Origin: a virus
IMG/VR virus record: IMGVR_UViG_3300025155_000024
Coordinates: 1 to 33,274 of that record
Length of the DNA: 33,274 nt
Reading direction: 5' to 3' (one strand)
Each line of letters begins with the position of its first letter. The first letter of the stretch is position 1. Below are positions 303-32,826 of this stretch, piece after piece. The notes under the pieces were generated by a model. That model was not told the origin of the DNA, did not search any database, and was given only the letters and a program-made list of their open reading frames with translations. The position numbers were made by a program, and so were the translations under genes.

Positions 303-629
303 ATGGAACCTCTTAAGCTACTTAAGTCTAAGAGGTCTAGTAGGCGTAGGGGATACACTAGACGGGGTAAGCACAAGTTAGCAGTTGAGTTAGAGCTGTC
401 AGACAAGGATCTGGACCTTCTAAAGAACTACGCCAGGGCTGGGTTCCCGAGAGCCAGAAACGGCAAGTTCAGGCTTGGGGCGGCAGCTAGCAGGATCTTG
501 GAACTTGGGATCCTATACCTATTTGAGAGGTACACGTATGGCCAAGATGAGCAGGAAAGTCAGGAAATCTCAGAGCGGGAAGCCTTGGACGAGGGGCTCC
601 GAATCATCGACGCCCCAAGAGAGGCCTGA
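303..629 (+). CDS. Small basic protein, possible DNA-binding
   Basis: 108 residues, starting at ATG with a good ribosome binding site (GAAGGAG, 291-297). The first 25 residues are very rich in Lys and Arg. Residues about 25-75 read like a small helical domain (LAVELELSDKDLDLLKNYAR), loosely resembling a ribbon-helix-helix or another small DNA-binding fold, but I cannot assign a family. The tail is acidic. It is the first gene of the rightward cluster before the terminase genes. Its last 92 bases overlap the next gene in the +1 frame. Function unknown. Confidence 0.55.
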   Translation: MEPLKLLKSKRSSRRRGYTRRGKHKLAVELELSDKDLDLLKNYARAGFPRARNGKFRLGAAASRILELGILYLFERYTYGQDEQESQEISEREALDEGLRIIDAPREA

Positions 630-939
630 CCCTAAGAGGCTTCCCGCTCCTCCTGAGGACATGCTCAGGATCCTCGTAAGCCCTACTGGTAGGGCTCTGG
701 CGCAGATCTTCAAGCTCGGTCAGGCCGTTACCAGGCACCTGGATGGGAAAGCCCTTCTTGGGCTGAATCGGGTAGAATCCAAGAATCTCATGGCTAGTGT
801 GATCTTGTTATCAGTAGAAGCCAGGGATGCCTATATCCTGGAACGACTTGCAATGGAGAAATCTCATGAAGCGGACGGTGAAATCCCCAAAGAGCCAGAA
901 GAGGCTCCAGCCGAGCCCAAAATCATCCTCGCCCACTAG
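538..939 (+). CDS. Hypothetical phage protein
   Basis: 133 residues. I chose the ATG at 538 over the upstream 475 because GAGAGG lies 7 bases before it. Residues 1-40 are basic and low in complexity. The central part (about 42-105, MLRILVSPTGRALAQIFKLG and following) is predicted helical, and the C-terminus is Glu/Pro/Ala rich. The gene begins inside the previous gene and ends inside the next, in a chain of overlapping small genes ahead of terS. No recognised domain; the position suggests a DNA-binding or packaging accessory role, but that is inference. Confidence 0.5.
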   Translation: MAKMSRKVRKSQSGKPWTRGSESSTPQERPDPKRLPAPPEDMLRILVSPTGRALAQIFKLGQAVTRHLDGKALLGLNRVESKNLMASVILLSVEARDAYILERLAMEKSHEADGEIPKEPEEAPAEPKIILAH

Positions 940-1527: not shown

Positions 1528-2100
1528 TTGAAAGGAGCACGTGAATATTGGGATGGAATTGGTGAAGTTGATCTCGTCCGACTCCCAGAAGGAGTCTCCA
1601 AAGCCAAGAGGGAAAGTCTTACAGCGGAACGTCTCGAAGCCATCGCCTCGTTCTTTGCGCTCCCGGATTGGGAGCGGGGTACAGAAGGTGTACCTGGAAC
1701 GGATTCCGAGATGGCCGCTGCCGTACGATGCTCCGTAGCATCCATCAAGAAGTGGAAACGCCATCCGATGATGGTGGATCGGGTGACGGACAAGATCTAC
1801 ACGGCAGCCGTGTACGCCATGCCCAATATCCTTTTTGGCCAGATCATCGCAGCCTCTCCTATATTCAAGGAAATTGGTGACGGTAGGTACGAGGTCATTC
1901 CAGGAGACACCAAGGCTGCGAACTACGTAGGAACGATAGCGAAGCTTTTGAGATCTGGCAACATCACTCTAAATCAGAGCCAGAACTCATTCTCACCGCT
2001 CCAAGATGAGCACGAGCCTACAGATGAGGAGCTCCGCAAACAGATCCGAGAGCTCGCCAAGCGCGAGCTAAAGGGGGTGGACCTCCCACCTGAGTCCTGA
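1528..2100 (+). CDS. terS: Terminase small subunit (predicted)
   Basis: 190 residues, TTG start with AAAGGA (1511-1516) upstream. It is immediately upstream of, and overlaps, the terminase large subunit. Residues 58-80 form a helix-turn-helix (TDSEMAAAVRCSVASIKKWK), matching the N-terminal DNA-recognition helices of small terminases that bind the packaging site and feed DNA to the motor. The rest is helical and ends in a charged tail, consistent with oligomerisation and contact with TerL. The last codons overlap the proposed CTG start of terL by 11 bases. The strong purine stretch AAAGGGGGTGG (2070-2080) near the end probably serves terL translation. Confidence 0.7.
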   Translation: MKGAREYWDGIGEVDLVRLPEGVSKAKRESLTAERLEAIASFFALPDWERGTEGVPGTDSEMAAAVRCSVASIKKWKRHPMMVDRVTDKIYTAAVYAMPNILFGQIIAASPIFKEIGDGRYEVIPGDTKAANYVGTIAKLLRSGNITLNQSQNSFSPLQDEHEPTDEELRKQIRELAKRELKGVDLPPES

Positions 2101-3613
2101 AGCAAGGACTACGGAGCTCCTCCGCCTATATGAGAAGCGGGCAAAAGAACGACCGTGGAGGTACTACACGTCGGTTCCGTCCATTCTCCCGTTCCACAGG
2201 TCCCTTTCGCACATCAGGGTCCTAGCAGGCCCAAACCGTGGAGGGAAGACCACAGCCGGAGCCATCGAGTGCATCTCCTTCGCCACCGGATGGAACGAGT
2301 TCAGACAGCAGAAGTATAAGACCCCAGACCTCCATTGGGCTGTGGCCCTCGACAATAATCGAATGGGCTATGTCCAGCGGAAGAAACTCTTCGAGCTACT
2401 TCCACCGCAGGGTTACAGGTACTGGAGGCAGGACCAGATCATTGAGATGAAGAAGCAGTGGGGTGGATCTGAGATCCACTTGATGTCCGCTGAGGCTGGC
2501 CCCCAGAAGTTCCAGGGAGCTAATCCCAGAAGCGTCTGGATAGACGAGGAACCGAAGGTACACGGAGAAGAGATCTGGGATGAGATCTATGCCCGTATCT
2601 CTCCAGGCCAGCCTCTGGATATCTACCTCACCTTCACCCCGCTTCTTGGATACAGCTGGAGCTTCAGGAAACTCTGGGATCCCGAGTCCATCGAGAGGGC
2701 TCCAGGAGTTGAGACGTTCATCTTCAGTTTGTATGACTGCGCGATATCGCGTGGCGGGCACTACACGGACGAGGAGATCGAGCACTTCGTCGCTGGATAC
2801 AGCGAGTACGAACGCAGGTCCCGTGTGTACGGAGCGTACTCTCTGGTTGGCGGCTCTCCGTACTTCGATCCCGATAGGGTCCATGCCTGCCGCGCACTTT
2901 GTCCAAAGGGGGTTTCAGCCACCTTCTCGGTGGATCCGACAAACCAGCCGCTCCTAAAGAAGTTTGGGGACGGAACCACCATTCTCTTCAAGGAGCGTGT
3001 GGCGAACCACCGCTACCTGGTGGGTGTGGATATCTCTGGTGGTGGCAGGAAGGACCGGTCGGTTGCTTACGTGATCGACCGGGATGATGACGCCGCCTGT
3101 GTCGCAAGGTTCAAGTCGAACATGATCGACCCAGAGGCGTTTGCCCGCGAAGTGGTGTTTCCAATGGCGCGGTACTATTTCAATGCAACCGTGGTCCCAG
3201 AGATCAACGGGGAGTATGGCGGTGCCTTCCTCACTTCGCTGCGAATGATCTACCCTTCAAGGATCTACAACCAGACTCAGTGGGATCGTGTAAAGAATCG
3301 GTTCACTGGGCAGCTTGGTTGGAGAACCCATGAAGGGACCCGTGGAATGATTATCTCGGCCCTTGAGAGGGCGATACGGGAGAAGAAGTGGAAGCCTACG
3401 TCTTCCCTGCTTGATGAGATGTGCATGATGGTCATCAAGGATAACGACAAAGTGGAGCATGTCGAGGGTGGGTTCGATGACGAGGCGTTCGCCGCTGGAC
3501 TAGCGATGGCTGTCTACTACCTAAATCCAAAGGCCAAACGGATCCCAGAAGATCAAAGGGTCGAGATCTGGGAGAGGGCTGCGAGCGATGAATTGGAGGC
3601 TGTGATCTGTTGA
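2090..3613 (+). CDS. terL: Terminase large subunit, probable CTG start
   Basis: ATP-driven DNA packaging motor and nuclease. The frame is open from 2072, but there is no ATG, GTG or TTG before GTG 2342. A start at 2342 would delete the Walker A motif, so I place the start at CTG 2090, behind the purine-rich AGGGGGTGG (2072-2080). That gives 507 residues. Motifs are complete: Walker A GPNRGGKTT (47-55), Walker B VWIDEE (149-154), coupling motif LTFTP (180-184), and the RNase H-like nuclease acidic residues D314 (GVDISGG), E372 (VPEING) and D463/D464 (GFDDEAFAAG). The gene overlaps terS by 11 bases and the portal start by 4. Expression by a +1 frameshift from terS is an alternative to CTG initiation. 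The identity is very secure; only the start is uncertain. Confidence 0.9.
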   Translation: MSPEARTTELLRLYEKRAKERPWRYYTSVPSILPFHRSLSHIRVLAGPNRGGKTTAGAIECISFATGWNEFRQQKYKTPDLHWAVALDNNRMGYVQRKKLFELLPPQGYRYWRQDQIIEMKKQWGGSEIHLMSAEAGPQKFQGANPRSVWIDEEPKVHGEEIWDEIYARISPGQPLDIYLTFTPLLGYSWSFRKLWDPESIERAPGVETFIFSLYDCAISRGGHYTDEEIEHFVAGYSEYERRSRVYGAYSLVGGSPYFDPDRVHACRALCPKGVSATFSVDPTNQPLLKKFGDGTTILFKERVANHRYLVGVDISGGGRKDRSVAYVIDRDDDAACVARFKSNMIDPEAFAREVVFPMARYYFNATVVPEINGEYGGAFLTSLRMIYPSRIYNQTQWDRVKNRFTGQLGWRTHEGTRGMIISALERAIREKKWKPTSSLLDEMCMMVIKDNDKVEHVEGGFDDEAFAAGLAMAVYYLNPKAKRIPEDQRVEIWERAASDELEAVIC

Positions 3614-5664
3614 TTCCAGACAAGCCGGATCTACCAGAAGCTGAGCTTCCGGAACAGAAAGAGGAAGAAATTGATAGCCGGGAACTGGATGGCTGGAAGA
3701 TAGGTCGCTCCCTTCTGCGATCCGCTAAATCCATTTCATCCAAGTTCCAGACTAAGTTCTATGACAACTGGAAGTTCCTCCTCGGGGAGAACCACTGGAA
3801 AGCACCTGCGAATACAGCCGCCAGGAAAGCAACTGAGTGGCAGAACCGTGGAGTCAGGAACTGGACCTTTGCCGCAGTGGACCAGAAAGCATCCTCGATC
3901 CTCTCTGCCGAGCCACGTATCACGGCGTATGCCTGGGGAGCCAACTCCAGCTTCATAGACCAGTACCGTGCTGCACAGGCCGTGGAGCATGAGCTGGACC
4001 GTATGAGGCGGAGGGAGTATGAAGAGGATGCCTTCTGGGATGGAGCCGCCTGTTCGATTGGTGTAACCAGAGTTGTTATTTGCCGGGATGAGCGCTCTGG
4101 AATGAAGTTCCTGAAACTTGAGTCCGTGGATCCAACAAGGTTCCATGTTGATCCCGAAGCCGACCGGCTCCATGAGTGCCGGTACATCAACTATGAGCCT
4201 GATATGGATATGGCGGACATCAGGAAGTACTTCCCGCTCACCTGGCACCGTCTTCTAAAAGAACCCGATAGGCAGTCACTTGACGTAACAACGGGGTCAT
4301 TGTCCCTGGATGCTGATGTTCGTCAGTACCGCTCCAAGTCGGACTGGGAGATGGTCAGTTCTGGCGGTAGAGAGATCACGGGCGGCAAGGGACCCATGAT
4401 CAGTGGTGTGCATCGGGTGTGTTACACGCTGATCAAAGACGATGAGGTCATCGAGGAAGTGGAGCGGAGGGTGCTCCAGGGAGAGCAGGAGGGCTACCAG
4501 TGCGCCCAATGCAGCTCCATCTTCTACCCCCCGGACCCAATGACCGATGTTGAGGAGATGGCGATGCCGGAGTCGGTCATGTGTCCCGACTGCGGCTCGG
4601 AGGCCGTGGCTGGCGTCACGATCCCTCCTGTGGAGGAACAGGGGGATACGGTACGGCGCTACAAGTACCCCTATGGAAGACTCATCGTCCACACGGAGAC
4701 CGCACTTCTTTATGACGGTCCCAACCAAGATGAGATTGAGGAGCTCTTCTTCCCATTCGCTGTCTACTCCTACTATAGGATTCCTCATAGGTTCCTAGGG
4801 TATGGGGATGTGGATCTCCTTAGATCCGCCCAGAGTTCTGCGGACAGGACCATGGCCCAGCTACTGGATTACTTGAGGCTGTGTGTGAATGGTGTATTCG
4901 AGTATCCAGATGAGGCATACCAGTACGATGCCACCGGGAATGCACCTGGCCAGAAGGTTGCTCTGCCACCCAATCTGATTGGGATGGCTCGCACAGTCCC
5001 CCCAGCTCCAATCAACCTGGGGGCCGTACAGCTAGCTGAGGATATAGCAAAGAGGGACTTCGGTGAGATGTCAGGTATCACTCCCATCTCAACTGGTACA
5101 GCGCCCTCGGCTCCAAGCTCGGGGCGTGAAGTTGAGATGCGGCAGCGTGCTGCTGCTACCAGGCTTGGGGGACACCTGTTCCGATTCAATCAGTACAGGA
5201 CGGACATAGCAAACATCGTCTGGCAGCTGATGTGGCAGCACTATAGGGAGCCCAGAATGGTCCCCATGAAGGATAGCCAGGGCCAGAAGGAAATGGTGGA
5301 GCTTGAGGTAAGGAGCCTGCCTAGGAACCTAAAGATGGTGGTCACGGCAGATCCGGATACCATCGAGAGAAACGACCTGACTGGACAGAATCTACAGGGC
5401 TTGATCACTCAGGGAGTCCTCCCAATGTGGCCCGATATGCTCCTACCTGCGATTGGAATCCCGGCTGGGATTGCAGCTCAGATTCAGGAGCGTATGAGGC
5501 TGGCCCAGGTGGAGCAGCAAATGGCCACTGAGCAACAAATAGCTGGTCAAGAGGGGATGCCACCTGAGGGGATGCCACCTGAGGGGATTCCACCTGAGGA
5601 GGCTATGATGGAGGGGCCACCGATGGAAGGGATGCCTGAGGAGGAGATGCCAGTTGTTTCCTAA
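3610..5664 (+). CDS. Portal protein with inserted zinc ribbon
   Basis: 684 residues, TTG start overlapping the terL stop (TTGA), with GGAG upstream near 3594. Portals form the dodecameric ring through which DNA is packaged and ejected. The assignment rests on position between terL and the scaffold/capsid genes, on size, and on segments typical of the large podoviral portals: an N-terminal helical region (WKFLLGENHW), SVDPTRFHVDPEA (172-184), GYGDVDLLRSAQ (397-408) and the SGREVEMRQRAAATR clip/stem region (504-518). Residues 297-329 carry two CxxC pairs (C298/C301, C325/C328), a zinc-ribbon-like insertion in the middle. The C-terminal 40 residues are Met/Pro/Glu repeats. Confidence 0.85.
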   Translation: MIPDKPDLPEAELPEQKEEEIDSRELDGWKIGRSLLRSAKSISSKFQTKFYDNWKFLLGENHWKAPANTAARKATEWQNRGVRNWTFAAVDQKASSILSAEPRITAYAWGANSSFIDQYRAAQAVEHELDRMRRREYEEDAFWDGAACSIGVTRVVICRDERSGMKFLKLESVDPTRFHVDPEADRLHECRYINYEPDMDMADIRKYFPLTWHRLLKEPDRQSLDVTTGSLSLDADVRQYRSKSDWEMVSSGGREITGGKGPMISGVHRVCYTLIKDDEVIEEVERRVLQGEQEGYQCAQCSSIFYPPDPMTDVEEMAMPESVMCPDCGSEAVAGVTIPPVEEQGDTVRRYKYPYGRLIVHTETALLYDGPNQDEIEELFFPFAVYSYYRIPHRFLGYGDVDLLRSAQSSADRTMAQLLDYLRLCVNGVFEYPDEAYQYDATGNAPGQKVALPPNLIGMARTVPPAPINLGAVQLAEDIAKRDFGEMSGITPISTGTAPSAPSSGREVEMRQRAAATRLGGHLFRFNQYRTDIANIVWQLMWQHYREPRMVPMKDSQGQKEMVELEVRSLPRNLKMVVTADPDTIERNDLTGQNLQGLITQGVLPMWPDMLLPAIGIPAGIAAQIQERMRLAQVEQQMATEQQIAGQEGMPPEGMPPEGIPPEEAMMEGPPMEGMPEEEMPVVS
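5551..5595 (+). repeat. 15-bp tandem repeat in portal C-terminus
   Basis: Three head-to-tail copies of GAGGGGATGCCACCT; the third has one substitution (ATT for ATG). The repeat is in frame and encodes EGMPP units in the disordered portal tail, followed by related but degenerate GPPMEGMPEEEMP. Slippage in replication is the likely origin. Confidence 0.85.
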
Positions 5665-6271
5665 GCCATTTAGCTGGAAGAAGCTAATAAAGATACCAGA
5701 TCCACCCCCAAAGAGGTTTTCAGATCTTATCGAAGAGATGGATGCTACTGATGAGACCATCAATGAGTTGATTCTGGATATCAAAGAGAACAAGATTCCC
5801 CCAGAAGAGATGGACCAAGCCATGAAATACTTGGCAGACCTCCAGTACGACAAGAAGAAATTCATGGAAGAAGTTGATGCCATGGCTAAAGTCATTAATA
5901 CAGAAAACCCAGATATAATTACACCTGATCCTCCTAGATACTCAGGAGACCCAGAGTATGCAGAACTTCCTGGCATCCCAGTACAAAGGATAAACAGTAT
6001 TTGGTATAGGGTTGCTAAGGCGCGTTTCCGTCCGGATCTAAATTCTATTATCGGTGGAGGTGGACTATACGGCTCAATGCGAGCTTCAGATGAGGCCAGA
6101 ACCAGAGAGAGGCAAGAACAGGAAATGGGCCGTATGGGGAAGGGGATGGAGGCGTTTGGCTACATGGTAGATCCTGCTGGTTCAGCTATGCAGGGCGCGA
6201 TCATGAGAATGATGAAAGAGCCAAGAGTCCCCGGAACCCCTGTGTTCTCAAACATCCACAGGGAGTACTAA
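5654..6271 (+). CDS. Hypothetical portal-proximal protein
   Basis: 205 residues, TTG start inside the portal gene with GGAG 8 bases upstream. The N-terminal segment is basic and Pro-rich (KIPDPPPKRFSDLIEEM), followed by a long helical, acidic stretch (30-85). The C-terminal half is Gly/Met/Arg rich (GGGGLYGSMRASDEARTRER; MGRMGKGMEAFGYM). It ends by overlapping the ATG of the next gene (TAATG). Its position between portal and scaffold suggests a virion or assembly role. No family recognised. Confidence 0.6.
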   Translation: MFPKPFSWKKLIKIPDPPPKRFSDLIEEMDATDETINELILDIKENKIPPEEMDQAMKYLADLQYDKKKFMEEVDAMAKVINTENPDIITPDPPRYSGDPEYAELPGIPVQRINSIWYRVAKARFRPDLNSIIGGGGLYGSMRASDEARTRERQEQEMGRMGKGMEAFGYMVDPAGSAMQGAIMRMMKEPRVPGTPVFSNIHREY

Positions 6272-6531: not shown

Positions 6532-7530
6532 ATGCCAGAGCCCCTAACTGGTGGACTGGAAGGACTGGGTGCATACCCAGAACCGGAGGTCGTGCCAGAA
6601 GAGGTAGCATCAGATGCCCAACCGGTAGCAGTTCCGGAGGGTGCAGTACCCGTAGAGCCGACAGAGGAAGAGAAGATCCTCTGGCGGTGGCGTAACAACG
6701 AGCGTGAGATCCCACGCAGAGTGGTGAAAGAGATGGCGACAGCTCTTGACGCCCCCAGTGAGGAAGCGCTTGTGCAGTGGACCCAGCAGGGACGTGACTA
6801 CAACTACTGGAAGAGCCAGCTCGATCAAGACCGTGAGTCCTTCGAGGAAGAGCGGCGTCAACTTCGTGCGAAAGAGTCAATGGTGGATAACATCATGAGG
6901 CAAATCGCAGAAGAGCGGTCGCTCCAGGAGGAATACCCGTCTGAAGGGCCTAGGGCGCGTAACGGCGCTGCCCCGCCCAGATATGAGATGCCTTCTCAGG
7001 TAGACGTAAACGACCCCAAGTCGGTCCTCAATGTGATCGCATCGTTACCTGCAACGCTGACCCAGCTTCGTTCGGAGATGTTGTCTGAGATCCGTAGAGA
7101 TCGTATCGACCTCCGAAGACGGGAAGCGGAATACAAGATTGCAGAGAATGCGGTCGTGATCCAAAACGAGGCGGAGTCCTTCGTGAAAGAGATGAAGGAT
7201 GAGGGTTGGGATGTTCCAGATCAGCTCAATCCAGAGCGATTGGTTCAGGAGTGTACCCGCCTGGGGCTGTCTCAGAATCCCGCCATTCCATGGCGAGAGG
7301 CGTTCGAGACGGCATTCGCCAAGATGGTCTATCGACATGGCCTGAGGCTGGGAGCCAGGAACATGGCCACACAGCTCACGACGAATCGGAAGGCAGAGTT
7401 CCGTACTCCACCCTCCAAGCCAGTCCAATCACAGACTACTCTTCCCAAGGATTCTCTCTTGGCTAAGGTAGAAGCTGCGAAGAAGATTGGGGCCAATGTT
7501 AGGATGTCAGACGCAGTTAACGATATGTAG
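6532..7530 (+). CDS. Scaffold-like capsid assembly protein
   Basis: 332 residues, ATG with AAGGAG 6 bases upstream. The protein is acidic at the N-terminus (VEPTEEEKILWRW), highly helical in the middle with coiled-coil-like stretches (about 85-130, QDRESFEEERRQLRAKE, and 165-210), and basic at the C-terminus. The gene sits between portal and major capsid protein. Composition, secondary structure and position all fit a scaffolding protein that directs procapsid assembly and then leaves. No protease domain is visible. Scaffold sequences diverge quickly, so the call is by context. Confidence 0.6.
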   Translation: MPEPLTGGLEGLGAYPEPEVVPEEVASDAQPVAVPEGAVPVEPTEEEKILWRWRNNEREIPRRVVKEMATALDAPSEEALVQWTQQGRDYNYWKSQLDQDRESFEEERRQLRAKESMVDNIMRQIAEERSLQEEYPSEGPRARNGAAPPRYEMPSQVDVNDPKSVLNVIASLPATLTQLRSEMLSEIRRDRIDLRRREAEYKIAENAVVIQNEAESFVKEMKDEGWDVPDQLNPERLVQECTRLGLSQNPAIPWREAFETAFAKMVYRHGLRLGARNMATQLTTNRKAEFRTPPSKPVQSQTTLPKDSLLAKVEAAKKIGANVRMSDAVNDM

Positions 7531-7544
7531 GAGGTGGTTCTCGG

Positions 7545-7790
7545 ATGCAGGAAATCCGAGACTCTAAGAATAAACCACATCCAGCACAGGTGATGACCAC
7601 GCAGGCGGTTCATGCCTACTGCCGTGGCCATGCCACCAGAGGGTTCAGTAAGGGAATCCGGGACCGGGCTGTTAAGGCTATGGATCCGATCTCTACCGAG
7701 GTCGGGGACGACAACTCCGCGATCCCGGCAACCCGAGATCTTCCCAATACGAAGATCAAGGACTCATTGAACCCGGCAGGTGTTCTGTGA
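7545..7790 (+). CDS. Small hypothetical protein
   Basis: 81 residues, ATG with an excellent ribosome binding site (GTAGGAGGTGG, 7527-7537). Basic N-terminal half (HAYCRGHATRGFSKGIRDRA) and a C-terminus ending IKDSLNPAGVL. A similar short DSLNP motif is in the next small protein. It lies between scaffold and capsid genes, where decoration or assembly proteins are common, but nothing else supports a function. Confidence 0.55.
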   Translation: MQEIRDSKNKPHPAQVMTTQAVHAYCRGHATRGFSKGIRDRAVKAMDPISTEVGDDNSAIPATRDLPNTKIKDSLNPAGVL

Positions 7791-8959: not shown

Positions 8960-8990
8960 GTGGTGGGGGGCTTAGAATACCCCCCACCAC
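8960..8990 (+). terminator. Hairpin after the capsid gene
   Basis: Perfect 11-bp GC-rich stem (8960-8970 with 8980-8990) with a 9-base loop, 21 bases after the capsid stop. There is no T-tract, and the next ribosome binding site (AGGAGGGGGA) starts immediately after the stem. It may act as a partial terminator or RNA 3' stabiliser that keeps capsid expression above downstream genes. Confidence 0.5.
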
Positions 8991-11153: not shown

Positions 11154-11161
11154 TAGACCAT

Positions 11162-11193
11162 GAGACGGTCCGAGACAAAACTCGGACCGTCTC
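11162..11193 (+). terminator. Strong hairpin, probable terminator
   Basis: A perfect 13-bp stem (11162-11174 with 11181-11193) and a 6-base ACAAAA loop, lying between the 159-residue virion gene and the GC-richer receptor-binding block. The T-run expected of an intrinsic terminator is missing, so it may be a processing or stability element. It coincides with the shift in base composition. Confidence 0.55.
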
Positions 11194-11210
11194 TAGGAAT
11201 CGTATAACCG

Positions 11211-11930: not shown

Positions 11931-13733
11931 ATGGCGATCTACTACCAACCACCGCAGCCATTCTTAGGGAGTCGGCAACCTCTAGAGGGTAGGAAGCTGA
12001 CGCCGGACTCCACGGACAACCCACCGTTCGGCGGGAGGCGACTCCTCTGGACGGTCCTCGCAGCCTGGCAACTCGTCGCGCCGCCGCTCCAACTGAGGCC
12101 AGGAATCGTTCCCGAAGCCGCAGCGGTCGAAGCGCCGGTTCTCTCGTCTCGTCCATGGTTCCCTGCCGTCATCGCTTCGTGGCAGGCCGAAGTACCGGCC
12201 TCCACCCAGAGACGCATATTGCCGCCGGAGTCTGCCCCGGACGATCCGCCGTTCGGATCTCGGCCTTGGCTCGGTTCCGTTCTCTCAAGCTGGCAATTCG
12301 ATCTCAAACCGGAAGCGGCTCCGAGGCGAGTCGTACCGGAGGAGGCGGGACCGCCAGCGGACGATCTGCCGTTCGGTCTCCGACCCTGGCTTAGCGCCGT
12401 CTCTGATTATTGGAACCAACCCGGTCCGCTCCCGGCCAGACCTCGCCTCACTCCGATCCTCTGTGGCGGCATCAGGAGCGCGAGCGGCACGATCACATAC
12501 CAGAACAACGAACACGGCGACACGACCTCGGACGGCATCCCAGGCTCATACAGCTTCATCGACATCTCTAAAAAGATGCCGCTGGAGTTGGTCGAGCTTG
12601 GGGCCCTCGGCTCTCAGAAGCTCTTTGATGCGGTATCGAACATCAACAACGGCGGCACATGCCCCGAACCGACTTCGTTCATCGCAGAAGACTCAACGGT
12701 GGTCTTCCGCTCCACGAAGACGTTCCAGGTTTCGGCGACGGGAGCCATTGGACGCTCGACACGACTTGGGCGTAAGGAGGGCACTGGCCTCAAGGCCGGG
12801 GGCAGCCACGGCATAAAGATGTACGCCAGTCCGAACTCCTTCGTCTTCCGAGGTCTCACTGAAATCTACGACAGCCACATCATCAACGTCTCATCGGGCT
12901 TTGGGAGCATCAGTTTCTTTCCCGCAGTCGATGACACTGGGGAGCTGATCGGTTCGATCTTCGAGAACCCAGTCGGATTAATCGGGTCCCTTGGTACCGC
13001 AACCTTCCGCCTGAGCAACATCTTCGATTGCACCTTTGTCCACAAGCCTAGCATCGCCAATGCCATGTCCATCAACGTAAACCACATGGAGCAGGTGACC
13101 TTCGTGTGCGTCGCTGGTGGGACCGTGTGCCTGCCGTTCACCGGAACCCTGCAAGCGCGTGACATCTTCTTCGCGGGATCCCCTTCCAGTTGGGACCTAA
13201 GACCGCAGAACGCGGCGGCTGGCGGGACGATACGTAATCCCACATGGAGTCGCGTTGTCCCGCAGATCGGGCCTTCGGTCACCACCTCCACATACGAGAC
13301 CTGGGATTATGGTGTGCTCATAGAGGATAAGACCACGGCTGCACCGCTTGCGGGCCTTGCTGTTGAGTTGTTGGACAAAGACGACGTAACGGTAGTCGAT
13401 ACCACGACAGACGCCACCGGCCAGATAGATTTTGACGCTCTTGGGGCGATAGAGTTCGGAACCGAGTTGTATAAGAACTGCGTGGTGGTCGTGCAGCACG
13501 CGGCTGGGGTTCCCGAGACTCCATCGTATAGGGGACCGTGGACTCTGAAGGTGAACCACAAGGGCACAATCAATCCAGCCTACGAGACCTACGAGCGGAA
13601 GATCGACTGGCCGTATGAGGACTATGCCTACGGAAGACAGTACAAGAAAGTCAACATGGTGGTTTCACTCGGACCACCTCCAGGGCCGGTTCCAGAGCCT
13701 CCGGTAGGGTGGATTGAGAAAGTAGGGTCATAG
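11931..13733 (+). CDS. Tail-spike-like protein with Trp-Gln repeats
   Basis: 600 residues, ATG directly after the previous stop. Residues 28-175 are four imperfect repeats of 37-40 residues built around [F/S]GxRPWLxxVLxxWQ and a closing Arg-Pro-Glu segment (Trp pairs at 40/46, 76/84, 113/121, 153/161). The middle (about 180-450) is Gly/Ser/Asn-rich with regular short strands, consistent with a right-handed beta-helix. Residues about 460-570 resemble an Ig-like or carboxypeptidase-regulatory domain (GVLIEDKTTAAPLAGLAVEL). This architecture fits a receptor-binding spike or fibre. It shares the high GC of its upstream neighbour and overlaps the GTG of the next gene by one base. Confidence 0.6.
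   Translation: MAIYYQPPQPFLGSRQPLEGRKLTPDSTDNPPFGGRRLLWTVLAAWQLVAPPLQLRPGIVPEAAAVEAPVLSSRPWFPAVIASWQAEVPASTQRRILPPESAPDDPPFGSRPWLGSVLSSWQFDLKPEAAPRRVVPEEAGPPADDLPFGLRPWLSAVSDYWNQPGPLPARPRLTPILCGGIRSASGTITYQNNEHGDTTSDGIPGSYSFIDISKKMPLELVELGALGSQKLFDAVSNINNGGTCPEPTSFIAEDSTVVFRSTKTFQVSATGAIGRSTRLGRKEGTGLKAGGSHGIKMYASPNSFVFRGLTEIYDSHIINVSSGFGSISFFPAVDDTGELIGSIFENPVGLIGSLGTATFRLSNIFDCTFVHKPSIANAMSINVNHMEQVTFVCVAGGTVCLPFTGTLQARDIFFAGSPSSWDLRPQNAAAGGTIRNPTWSRVVPQIGPSVTTSTYETWDYGVLIEDKTTAAPLAGLAVELLDKDDVTVVDTTTDATGQIDFDALGAIEFGTELYKNCVVVVQHAAGVPETPSYRGPWTLKVNHKGTINPAYETYERKIDWPYEDYAYGRQYKKVNMVVSLGPPPGPVPEPPVGWIEKVGS
12012..12455 (+). repeat. Coding repeats of about 37-40 residues, four copies
   Basis: Four diverged protein-level repeats in the N-terminal part of the 600-residue spike-like protein. 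Conserved positions are PPFG, RPW, a hydrophobic run with VL or VI, WQ, and a later RR-PE. A partial unit (FLGSRQPLEGRKLTP) precedes them. The DNA copies have diverged, so the duplication is old and probably retained for function. Confidence 0.75.
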
Positions 13734-26764: not shown

Positions 26765-27332
26765 GATAACTGATCTCCGTATCGGGGACTTTGTATCCGT
26801 GGAGTGGATGGATCATGCCAAATACGAGGGTGGGTGGGGTAGGGTGTCCGAGAAACCGCCTCCTATTTTGGTGTCCTGTGGGAGACTGGCAGACATTCCA
26901 GGACCATGGTGTACACTGGCCGTACACGATGAGGTAACTGGAACTGGAGAAAACTCTGAGTGGTTTACCGCTGTGACACCTGCGATACGGCAGATCGTCG
27001 TTTATAGGGCTGTGGCGGTTTGGAACTCACCCCTTTCCGATATCGTACAAACCTCACCAACTTCGTTTCCTCCCACACAGGTCCCAAAACCACGCCGGTC
27101 TTCGAAATCTTTGAGCGTTCGTAGTACATCTGTCTTAGCGGCATCTGCTTCCCACCCCAGAAAACGATTGTCCGCCAGATGTCCGGCTTCTCTTTACGGT
27201 CGCTCCAGGGAGTCTTCCCCCTTGGCACCGTACGAAGGGAGGGATCACACCTCACAGAGTGGCAGGCCTCACAAAGTCCGTTCTTCAGGATCTCAGAGGA
27301 AGCCACAAAACCGCACTGAGTACAGGAGTTAA
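26748..27332 (+). CDS. Small phage protein with suspicious long tail
   Basis: The ATG at 26748 has GAGGAGG (26735-26741) 6 bases upstream, inside the transglycosylase gene. Residues 1-86 look like a real small beta-rich domain (RKITDLRIGDFVSVEWMDHA; PGPWCTLAVHDEVTG). The remaining 108 residues are Ser/Arg/Pro-rich and lie opposite the leftward zinc-ribbon gene, so they look like antisense read-through. The native protein may be about 86 residues: a TAG lies out of frame at 27005-27007, so a small deletion or insertion may have removed the stop. Function unknown. Confidence 0.5.
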   Translation: MKRIRKITDLRIGDFVSVEWMDHAKYEGGWGRVSEKPPPILVSCGRLADIPGPWCTLAVHDEVTGTGENSEWFTAVTPAIRQIVVYRAVAVWNSPLSDIVQTSPTSFPPTQVPKPRRSSKSLSVRSTSVLAASASHPRKRLSARCPASLYGRSRESSPLAPYEGRDHTSQSGRPHKVRSSGSQRKPQNRTEYRS

Positions 27333-30371: not shown

Positions 30372-30593
30372 TCAACTACCCCTCCCTTCTGATTCCTCGT
30401 CGGGCTCGATTTCCCACTCAGATAACTCTAATAGAGAGCATGGCTCAGTCTCAAAACGAACCACGCTCTCTTTCCCACCACTAACAGCAACTCTCCTACA
30501 AGAGCAGAAGGTTACCTTACTGGGGCTCGTTGATTCCACAGTATCCCCACAGTGGACGCACTGAGCTGCGTTCTTCTTGATCACCCTGGCCAC
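30372..30593 (-). CDS. Zinc-ribbon protein (CxxCGDxxES type)
   Basis: 73 residues, GTG start with GGAGGT 4 bases upstream. C12/C15 (CVHCGDTVES) and C30/C32 (CSC) make a zinc ribbon followed by RVAVSGGKESVVRFE. This is the pattern of a small family found in many phages (CxxCGDxIES...CxC...xVDGG). It heads the leftward operon, directly behind the structured RNA candidate at 30611-30713. Function unknown, perhaps regulatory. Confidence 0.6.
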   Translation of the reverse strand: MARVIKKNAAQCVHCGDTVESTSPSKVTFCSCRRVAVSGGKESVVRFETEPCSLLELSEWEIEPDEESEGRGS

Positions 30594-30610
30594 AGTTACC
30601 TCCTACAAAA

Positions 30611-30713
30611 TTGGGATGCTGGCACCAGATAGCTCAAGTCTTGGATAGGCTACCAAGATCATGTCGCTGCCGGAGTTGTAATCTCTGCCTTAGAGATCTA
30701 GCCAGCACCCCAA
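30611..30713 (-). ncRNA. Candidate structured RNA / 5' leader
   Basis: The gap of 127 bases between the ATPase gene and the zinc-ribbon operon folds, read leftward, into a closing stem (30701-30713 with 30611-30623: 12 Watson-Crick pairs plus one G-U on the minus strand; the same position would be an A-C mismatch on the plus strand). Inside are two 6-bp hairpins (30681-30686/30692-30697 with loop AAGGC; 30639-30644/30653-30658 with loop TAGCCTAT). The loops carry complementary AGGC/GCCT, allowing a kissing contact. It ends 6 bases before the GGAGGT of the next gene. Candidate cis-regulator, ribozyme or processed small RNA. Confidence 0.35.
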
Positions 30714-30720
30714 ACCTTAA

Positions 30721-32220
30721 TTACTCTGATGGCTCCCATGTCGATGAGTAACCATTCATTGCAGCCTTTACTCCATCTCCAATCCTGGAGCCAAGACGAT
30801 CCACAACCTCGTGCAGGCGCCTCATCTGCTTGGCGTCCCTGGTTTCCTTAGTGGAGATGAAGAGCTTCTGCTCCAGCATCAGAGTATCTGCTGCATTGTT
30901 GAGGTCCACAGCCGTGATAGAAGATGAGAGGCCATGCGTCCTGCCTATTGCCTCAAGTTTCGACCTCTCCACAACTTCTCTGATCACAGCAGGGATCTGC
31001 CCTGAGATCTTCTCGGAGACCAAACTGAGATCCTCACTATCCCCGATCTCGCTGTCTCCATAGAGCCTGATCAGCCTCTCTGATGCCTCTCTGTCCGGAG
31101 CCTCTACATGGATTACCGTGTCGATCCTTCCAGGCCTTCGCATGGCAGGGTTGATATCATCCGGATGATTCGACGTGAGAACCGTCATGATCTCGATGGA
31201 CTTGGATCCAATCCCATCCAGCGTGTTCAGGAGCTCATTCACCGAATCATTTCTCTCTGTCCCAGCTGCCCGCTCCACGTCTTCTGCGAACACGATTGCT
31301 GGCTGGAACCTCTTAGCGAACTGGAGAGCCTCTGAGAGCTCGTCTACATCACTTACGTAAACGAACGTCCAGTTGCTTTTCACTGCCTCCCTTGCAAGGA
31401 TCCCAGCTGCCAGAGTCTTTCCGGTGCCATACTTCCCGGCTAACAGGACACCACGCTTCATCGGAACTCCAGCCTTACGTGACCTCTCACTGTACCGTAC
31501 TGGCACGAGAACATTTGACTCGATGGCGTGCTCGATGTGATTGCTAAAGATGACGCTCAGAGGCTTGTCTGTGTCGATAAAGCTGATGTTCGGTAGATCC
31601 ATCAGTTTATCCTCTTCATTCCGGAACTTGATCTTGATGGCCTTGTTCCGGTAGATGCTCTCATGAGCTGCGATCTCCCTGGTTCTCTCGATCAGATGGT
31701 TGATCTTCTTCTTTTCCTTGTTCTTCACCTGAGCCATGAGAACAAAGACTAGATGGCCATCATTGTTCTTGGAAATCCCAGTCTGGATCCATCCATCAAC
31801 ACCAGGGAGAGTAAATCTTCCCCATGGAACCTTGACTGTCTCCGTGGTAGAGATATCCACAGAGATCAGTGCCGGTGGTGACTTCCCAAAGAACCCAGGA
31901 GTGGGCTCCTGCATTGGGAATCCGAAGAGCTCCTTCATTGCCTTTGCCATGGCAATAGCTCCATCCCATGGAAATGCGTTGATGGTCTCATTGATGACAA
32001 CCACTTCCTCATCGTAAATCATCCTACGCTGAAGAACCTCGATTGCCTCGGGGATCCCCATCTTAACAGGAAGCATGATGGGTCCATCGTGGTAGTTTAC
32101 TTCTGCGACTGTTGCTTTCTTTGGTGCCATTGGTCTCTCCTTTTCTACCTCGATGAGGGCTCCCTTAAAGATCTTAAAGAACATCTCATTGAGTGATAGT
32201 TGTTCCGTTGGGTCTCCCAT
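30721..32220 (-). CDS. AAA+ ATPase, CDC48/FtsH-like
   Basis: 499 residues. The C-terminal half is a classic AAA module: Walker A GKYGTGKT (262-269), Walker B IVFAED (309-314), sensor-1 Asn in TSNHPD (N351) and the arginine region RRPGRID (361-367) of the FtsH/CDC48 clade. The N-terminal 230 residues have no recognised domain and probably bind a substrate. Such ATPases remodel protein complexes; targets are unknown. No protease domain. An internal ATG at 32130 has a better AAGGAG site, so a shorter form from residue 31 may be made. Follows the HTH gene by 5 bases. Confidence 0.8.
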   Translation of the reverse strand: MGDPTEQLSLNEMFFKIFKGALIEVEKERPMAPKKATVAEVNYHDGPIMLPVKMGIPEAIEVLQRRMIYDEEVVVINETINAFPWDGAIAMAKAMKELFGFPMQEPTPGFFGKSPPALISVDISTTETVKVPWGRFTLPGVDGWIQTGISKNNDGHLVFVLMAQVKNKEKKKINHLIERTREIAAHESIYRNKAIKIKFRNEEDKLMDLPNISFIDTDKPLSVIFSNHIEHAIESNVLVPVRYSERSRKAGVPMKRGVLLAGKYGTGKTLAAGILAREAVKSNWTFVYVSDVDELSEALQFAKRFQPAIVFAEDVERAAGTERNDSVNELLNTLDGIGSKSIEIMTVLTSNHPDDINPAMRRPGRIDTVIHVEAPDREASERLIRLYGDSEIGDSEDLSLVSEKISGQIPAVIREVVERSKLEAIGRTHGLSSSITAVDLNNAADTLMLEQKLFISTKETRDAKQMRRLHEVVDRLGSRIGDGVKAAMNGYSSTWEPSE

Positions 32221-32225
32221 TTCCT

Positions 32226-32702
32226 TTACCTCTTGGTAATCTTCTTGACCTCCTTAAACCTTGCATCCGGGACAGCCCGGATACCATACTCCCACTGGTC
32301 GATGGTGGCATTGCTCACACCCATCTTCGTTGCGAGCTCAGACTTTCCCAAGCCTGCATTGAGCCTTGCATTCTTGAAGAACCTGGCCCTGACCAGGTGT
32401 CTCTTTAGCTCAGAGCCCCTAAGATCCTTGGACAGGTTTTTGTAGGTACGGTAGGGGGGCCTCAGTGACTTCCGCTTTCCTAGCAGATTCCGCTTCTTTG
32501 GCTTGGCTGGGGCGTCATTGGGATCACCATTCTTCCAGTTTGCTGTGACTTCCCACTCCCCACTCGGTGTCTCTGGGGTACCTGATACTGGATCATGATC
32601 CTCAATAAACATTCTGAGGAGACCCGCCCTAGCCGTGTCTGAATTCAGTGATCCCAGGATAACTCCCAACGCTGCTACTTCTGTTCTGGTTAGGTGTTCC
32701 AT
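32226..32702 (-). CDS. Xre-type HTH protein
   Basis: 158 residues from ATG 32702, chosen over an upstream in-frame ATG (32756) because AAGGAG lies 7 bases before it. The N-terminus (HLTRTEVAALGVILGSL) is a short helical stretch, the middle is basic and Pro/Lys-rich, and the C-terminal 45 residues form a helix-turn-helix (NARLNAGLGKSELATKMGVS, then NATIDQWEYG) of Xre/Cro type. A transcriptional regulator of the leftward genes is the simplest role; operators were not identified. Confidence 0.65.
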   Translation of the reverse strand: MEHLTRTEVAALGVILGSLNSDTARAGLLRMFIEDHDPVSGTPETPSGEWEVTANWKNGDPNDAPAKPKKRNLLGKRKSLRPPYRTYKNLSKDLRGSELKRHLVRARFFKNARLNAGLGKSELATKMGVSNATIDQWEYGIRAVPDARFKEVKKITKR

Positions 32703-32826
32703 GCTCTTTCTCCTTCTGGTTGATGAGATGGTTTTAGTGGATCTCCGGGCAGCCATGACCGGGGACAGTCTGCCCTGGAGTCAGGAGTAACGAGGCCCAA
32801 TATCCCCGCCCGGCCCTCCACTCCCC

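Follow-up and report, generated by a model that had tools for sequence, protein, structure and literature searches.

An intercistronic gap in a tailed phage operon is predicted to fold into a branched RNA structure

When read leftward, the gap between an AAA+ ATPase gene and a DUF7695 zinc-ribbon gene of a tailed phage is predicted to fold into a branched RNA whose closing stem ends a few nucleotides before the next Shine–Dalgarno site. This stem is rare by chance, and it is one of the five strongest distinct stems of the window (the whole 33,274-nt stretch of DNA that was analyzed, from a virus record in IMG/VR), all of which lie at gene junctions. We give about as much credence as doubt to the explanation that we favor, which is that the gap RNA acts in cis as an intercistronic structure of the mRNA from a leftward operon and belongs to a set of junction stems.

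Results

The gap and its predicted fold

The gap (30594-30720, 127 nt) extends from the stop codon of the AAA+ gene to the GTG start codon of the DUF7695 gene. Both flanking genes are on the minus strand, and the gap is accordingly expected to be read leftward. The other genes of this operon mostly abut or overlap, and a gene for an HTH protein (32226-32756) lies upstream. The AAA+ ATPase is at most 45% identical to FtsH/26S-like phage ATPases. The features of the gap and its flanks are as follows.

30721-32220, minus strand: AAA+ ATPase gene, upstream of the gap; 499 aa; PF00004; phrog_10440, E 6.8e-137
30701-30713, minus strand: predicted closing stem P1, 5' arm, UUGGGGUGCUGGC
30680-30698, minus strand: predicted hairpin P2, loop AAGGC (30691-30687); MFE and centroid structures
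30625-30673, minus strand: predicted irregular arm P3, with CCGG/CUGG, AGC/GCU, and a tip hairpin; MFE structure
30639-30658, minus strand: predicted 6-bp tip hairpin of P3, loop UAGCCUAU
30611-30623, minus strand: predicted closing stem P1, 3' arm, GCCAGCAUCCCAA; ends 6 nt upstream of AGGAGG
30604-30599, minus strand: Shine–Dalgarno site AGGAGG of the DUF7695 gene, 5 nt upstream of the GTG at 30593
30372-30593, minus strand: DUF7695 zinc-ribbon gene, downstream of the gap; 73 aa; PF24749, 55.6 bits, E 4.6e-15

In the predicted fold of minus-strand positions 30608-30716, P1 encloses 77 nt that carry the two arms P2 and P3, which would give a compact three-way junction. The same three helices are present in the MFE and centroid structures. 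A preliminary description of this DNA had proposed a closing stem of 13 positions, and refolding bears this out: 30713-30701 pairs with 30623-30611 in 13 consecutive pairs, 12 of them Watson–Crick and one G-U. P2 consists of six Watson–Crick pairs and a terminal G-U pair, and is retained in each of the 30 suboptimal structures listed, whereas the lower part of P3 is less certain. The two 6-bp hairpins of the preliminary description are thus recovered as P2 and the tip of P3, except that the second does not stand alone but caps a longer irregular arm (30673-30625). Only ∼7 nt after the AAA+ stop codon and 17 nt ahead of the GTG are left outside P1. These 17 nt comprise a U-rich linker, which begins with UUUUGU immediately 3' of the P1 arm, followed by the Shine–Dalgarno site and a spacer. 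A multi-stem RNA just upstream of this site, at the claimed spacing of 6 nt, is supported, and it is plausible that the leftward transcript contains a structured RNA here. A hidden small ORF of 19 codons (ATG at 30662 to TAG at 30605-30603) was considered and rejected; it is not preceded by a Shine–Dalgarno site.

Two further interactions had been proposed within the gap. The loops do carry the complementary sequences AGGC and GCCU, but a loop–loop contact is not supported and seems implausible. The match is weak: only 4 nt would pair, one loop having 5 nt and the other 8 nt, and the 5-nt loop would be left without slack. We estimate that a match of this kind is expected by chance at ∼4% (2 x 5 registers of four bases, 1/256 each). 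Likewise, GGCTA (30703-30699) and TAGCC (30652-30648) both exist on the minus strand of the gap, but their pairing as a switch fails on energy. The enforced alternative has an energy of -28.8 kcal/mol compared with -46.1 kcal/mol for the MFE structure, a cost of 17 kcal/mol, and its pairing probability is ∼1e-11.

Chance expectation for the fold and for the closing stem

Folding of the minus strand of the gap gives an MFE of -46.1 kcal/mol, whereas shuffles average -35.6 (z -2.84; 1 of 200 shuffles). The plus strand folds almost as well (-39.0 kcal/mol, z -2.46). This similarity bears on the earlier argument that the closing stem identifies its own strand. Its sole non-Watson–Crick position is indeed G-U on the minus strand and A-C on the plus strand. 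However, a single wobble is worth only about one bit, because any Watson–Crick transition reads as G-U on one strand and as A-C on the other. The orientation of the flanking genes is the better basis for reading the gap leftward. When 127-nt windows were scanned on both strands in steps of 50 bases, the gap ranked 51st of 1328 by z, and so its fold energy by itself is not striking: 50 other windows are equal or better.

P1 is rarer by chance than the fold energy suggests. Of 3000 simulated gaps, 3 contained a stem of at least 13 pairs that had no more than one G-U, and the expected number of such stems in a simulated 33-kb sequence is ∼0.25 per strand.

Strong stems at other gene junctions

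Stems of at least 11 pairs, spanning up to 130 nt, were ranked by duplex energy across the window. Eight of the top 10 stem records, which represent five distinct elements, overlap gene gaps compared with 0.74 expected, and none of 2000 random placements matches this count. The gene map used for this comparison was made by hand from the ORFs, so that gap borders and starts are approximate. Besides the P1 element (30611-30713), the strongest distinct stems are the following.

573-649, plus strand: 14-bp junction stem (573-586/636-649), ending 5 nt before the Shine–Dalgarno sequence GAGGA of a gene starting at 661
2026-2122, plus strand: multibranched junction stem over the small/large terminase boundary, z -5.7
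8960-8990, plus strand: 11-bp hairpin after the major capsid gene, ending 1 nt before GGAGG; no U-run
11162-11193, plus strand: perfect 13-bp hairpin in a 57-nt gap (11154-11210), ending 1 nt before AGGA; no U-run

Three of these four elements are followed within a few bases by a Shine–Dalgarno-like site, and the junction stems mostly lack the U-run of a terminator. They have no common sequence or shape. The 5' arms of the stems at 573-649 and 2026-2122 lie within coding sequence, and these two stems would therefore be opened by translating ribosomes. The same scan on the plus strands of T7 and P22 gave top stems of -21.8 and -19.9 kcal/mol, respectively, compared with -28.1 kcal/mol here; 7 of 14 stems overlap gaps in T7 and 4 of 14 do so in P22.

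A contig of the same phage (3300025159_000183), from which the loci designated L001 and L005 are taken, overlaps both window ends and closes the map at ∼41 kb. The window is thus an incomplete, permuted piece, with 7.7 kb missing between its end (33274) and its start (1). This extension (L005) holds further strong gap stems at 5666-5702, 6785-6814, 7416-7453, and 7516-7560, the first of them a hairpin upstream of AAAAAGGAGGG. Another stem, at 4611-4651, differs from these in lying inside a gene. It is a perfect 14-bp hairpin within a small zinc-ribbon-like gene (4432-4791, minus strand) and recalls the DUF7695 hairpins described below. The long hairpins at 7416-7453 and 7516-7560 are situated just upstream of a 17-bp hairpin with one bulge at 3-41 of the window, where ∼300 nt of noncoding sequence precede the first rightward gene. 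This arrangement looks like a divergent control region.

Search for relatives

The preliminary description had recognized no known riboswitch, ribozyme, or tRNA in the gap, and our searches agree. Covariance-model searches against Rfam, which it had proposed as a check, matched no family at gathering thresholds over the window and none sensibly at E ≤ 10 over the gap, and ARAGORN found no tRNA or tmRNA. In IMG/VR, only one second copy of the gap was found. It is in L001 and its RNA is identical; a single base differs between the two sequences over 7551 positions, at 27201, outside the RNA. A second contig of the same phage (3300002407_000029) covers other regions only. The homologous gaps in which base-pair changes could be sought therefore number one, identical in sequence.

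Apart from AAA+ homologs of at most 45% identity, searches with single proteins (AAA+, DUF7695, terminase, capsid, and portal) and with an alignment of the AAA+ family in IMG/VR and bacterial genomes returned only the two near-identical contigs of the same phage, and they revealed no further relative of the gap RNA. The AAA+ homologs occur in Schitoviridae, Kochitakasuvirus, and other phages, where the downstream genes and gaps are different. The gaps downstream of these homologs, when folded, proved mostly to be terminators or plain sequence, with no such RNA and no DUF7695 gene. A loop-pattern search of viral contigs gave one extra match, a repetitive stretch (L073) unrelated to the gap, and blastn of the RNA in phages and plasmids found no relative. 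Covariance model R1 retrieved nothing from 49 loci and 398 genomes; the genome search was run without a positive control, and its empty result is weak evidence.

Other features of the phage

The strongest local fold of the window is in the DUF7695 coding sequence, where two tandem long hairpins (30475-30525 and 30433-30471, minus strand; total span 30433-30525) have a z of -6.9 (0 of 200 shuffles) compared with -0.9 on the plus strand. We initially favored these hairpins as a real element and then dropped them, since their score against synonymous recoding is only about -3.7. This places them 8th among 402 coding windows. Selection on them is not claimed because the score drops on recoding and other genes of the phage reach -5.5.

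The large terminase frame (plus strand) is open from 2072 with no ATG, GTG, or TTG before 2342, and its Walker A motif (GPNRGGKTT) is encoded upstream of 2342. Translation must therefore start at a rare codon, perhaps the CTG at 2090, or proceed via a +1 shift. A putative shift site is the small-terminase stop, which reads UCC UGA and lies within the stable structure at 2026-2122. The sequence of this junction is the same in two other contigs.

Between two phage genes in the extension, L005 5908-6108 (minus strand) is an ORF of nearly pure Gly-Ala repeat (MGAGAGAG...AYNQEG), which may be a gene or a simple-sequence tract. The window differs from contig 3300002407_000029 at 22 positions. Of these, 20, including two N, fall at 12405-13062, in the gene at 11931-13733, and this part of the encoded protein may therefore be variable or subject to recombination.

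Discussion

Comparison with known RNAs

By position, the nearest well-studied precedent for the gap RNA is the set of RNase III processing hairpins of T7. As a yardstick, we folded four T7 gaps that we take to hold the early sites R0.5, R1, R1.1, and R1.3. Their z values range from -1.9 to -4.1, which includes the gap RNA, and their loops are of 3-5 nt. R1.1 serves as a standard substrate for RNase III (PMC6121014). As with the T7 sites, the gap is intercistronic in a phage transcript predicted from gene strand to be polycistronic. It places a strong stem in untranslated RNA, a few to a few tens of nt before the next gene, and shows no terminator U-run. Both also have a duplex that is nearly perfect over at least about one helical turn, which in P1 amounts to 13 stacked pairs. 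However, the T7 hairpins are simple, with their 3-5-nt loops, whereas the gap RNA is predicted to be a three-way junction that encloses 77 nt. Furthermore, the T7 sites share sequence, whereas the companion stems here are unrelated and the 13-mer of the P1 arm does not recur above chance. We do not file the gap RNA as a T7-type site because the small loop and the shared sequence are both absent. Cleavage by RNase III is a candidate role, and the likeness to such sites holds at most in outline.

Other precedents are more distant. The stem-loop that follows the major capsid gene in P22, HK97, and lambda is annotated at 6102-6119 in the P22 record (NC_002371), and the window has a hairpin in the corresponding place (8960-8990); this is a simple hairpin in the late operon and is separate from the gap RNA. 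Ribosomal-protein leaders and riboswitches are also branched RNAs directly upstream of a Shine–Dalgarno site, from which the gap RNA differs in having no known conserved core, no credible alternative fold that hides this site, and no Rfam match. In E. coli operons, mRNA structure is ORF-centric, changing at ORF boundaries and relating to translation rates (PMC5318159). That work deals with structure across whole ORFs and with low pairing around start codons; strong stems in gaps are not its subject (PMC5318159).

Alternative explanations

An unselected structure, in which a neutral spacer folds by chance and its stem was picked as the best looking from 33 kb, is an unlikely explanation but one to be taken seriously. 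The modest z rank, the comparable folding of the two strands, the presence in the same phage of coding windows that fold similarly or more strongly, and the failure to find relatives are all in its favor. Nevertheless, stems with at least 13 pairs, of which about a quarter of one would be expected per strand, occur at several junctions, and the gap is 127 nt long although the genes of this operon otherwise mostly abut or overlap. It is improbable that the gap is instead a regulated leader of the DUF7695 gene, with translation controlled by the binding of the zinc-ribbon protein, the AAA+ protein, or a ligand to the junction, in the manner of autoregulated ribosomal-protein leaders or riboswitches. 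A branched fold immediately upstream of the Shine–Dalgarno site, a small zinc-ribbon product with possible nucleic acid-binding activity, and the lack of an Rfam match would suit such a leader. The Shine–Dalgarno site and the start codon, however, are outside the fold, the sole alternative fold proposed costs 17 kcal/mol, its position is that of an intercistronic element and not of a 5' leader, and no conservation marks a binding core. A generic riboswitch was rejected since the proposed competing fold is not of comparable energy. The gap holds no evidence for a riboswitch or a new RNA class. A combined reading is very unlikely, in which this uncultured lineage marks many junctions with strong, sequence-unrelated stems ending at the next Shine–Dalgarno site and the gap RNA, possibly together with the tandem DUF7695 hairpins, constitutes an undescribed branched class of regulatory RNA bound by the zinc-ribbon protein.

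The inverted repeat TTGGGGTGCTGGC/GCCAGCATCCCAA might instead act at the level of DNA and serve as a paired binding site or a cruciform, for example for the HTH protein encoded upstream. The arms are near-perfect inverted copies that need G-U tolerance at one position only. A repeated operator was rejected, given that the arm 13-mer has three matches in the window (no more than two mismatches) versus 1.7 expected; the other junction stems are unrelated in sequence, and the two arms are separated by 77 bp that contain additional nested hairpins. We regard a DNA element as quite improbable. There is similarly little chance that P1 is a weak intrinsic or attenuating terminator, a GC-rich stem followed by UUUU that would end part of the AAA+ transcripts. 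Although UUUUGU directly follows the 3' arm, this run has four U only, and P1 encloses 77 nt in place of the short loop of a GC-rich terminator hairpin. A terminator scan, which covers short loops only, did not list P1 and found no more terminator-like sites than in shuffles; the U-run is also absent from most other junction stems. Least credible, and in our judgment extremely improbable, is a trans-acting structural RNA that is excised and self-associates through complementary loops like the phi29 packaging RNA. The likeness is one of outline, namely a closing stem, a three-way junction, two arms with complementary loops, and a similar length (PMC5340915). However, Phage_pRNA was not matched in Rfam at gathering thresholds or at E ≤ 10, and the phage has no phi29-type packaging ATPase. 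Its large terminase (PF03237) is of the T4/P22 type and its portal (PF16510) is P22-like, and this packaging locus is far from the gap RNA. A kissing contact of 4 bp would not fit in the 5-nt loop, and the analysis revealed no promoter-like site belonging to the gap RNA itself.

Proposed role and implications

As a cis-acting element, the untranslated 127-nt gap of the AAA+/DUF7695 transcript would fold into a compact three-way junction in the cell. We infer that it most likely serves in the handling of the polycistronic message. The double-stranded stem could be a site at which an RNase III-type enzyme processes the transcript, or the folded block might shield the untranslated RNA of the gap against nucleases and Rho and yet keep the downstream ribosome site open. 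Its predicted anatomy would fit processing, gap protection, and insulation of the downstream start alike. The unremarkable z of the gap within the window counts against a cis-acting element, and the predicted RNA is unusually branched for one. The searches also yielded no divergent homolog of the gap that would show selection on its pairs, and the unrelated sequences and shapes of the junction elements, together with the coding position of two of their 5' arms, weigh against such a set.

Taken alone, the gap RNA is an ordinary and unproven intercistronic RNA structure of modest interest, and this interest rests on the junction-wide pattern. If that pattern holds, the phage would be a clean example of one that organizes its operons by RNA stems and not by terminators. 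It would do so in a lineage for which our searches found no cultured relative, and its defined elements would allow tests of how stems adjacent to Shine–Dalgarno sites act in processing and translation.
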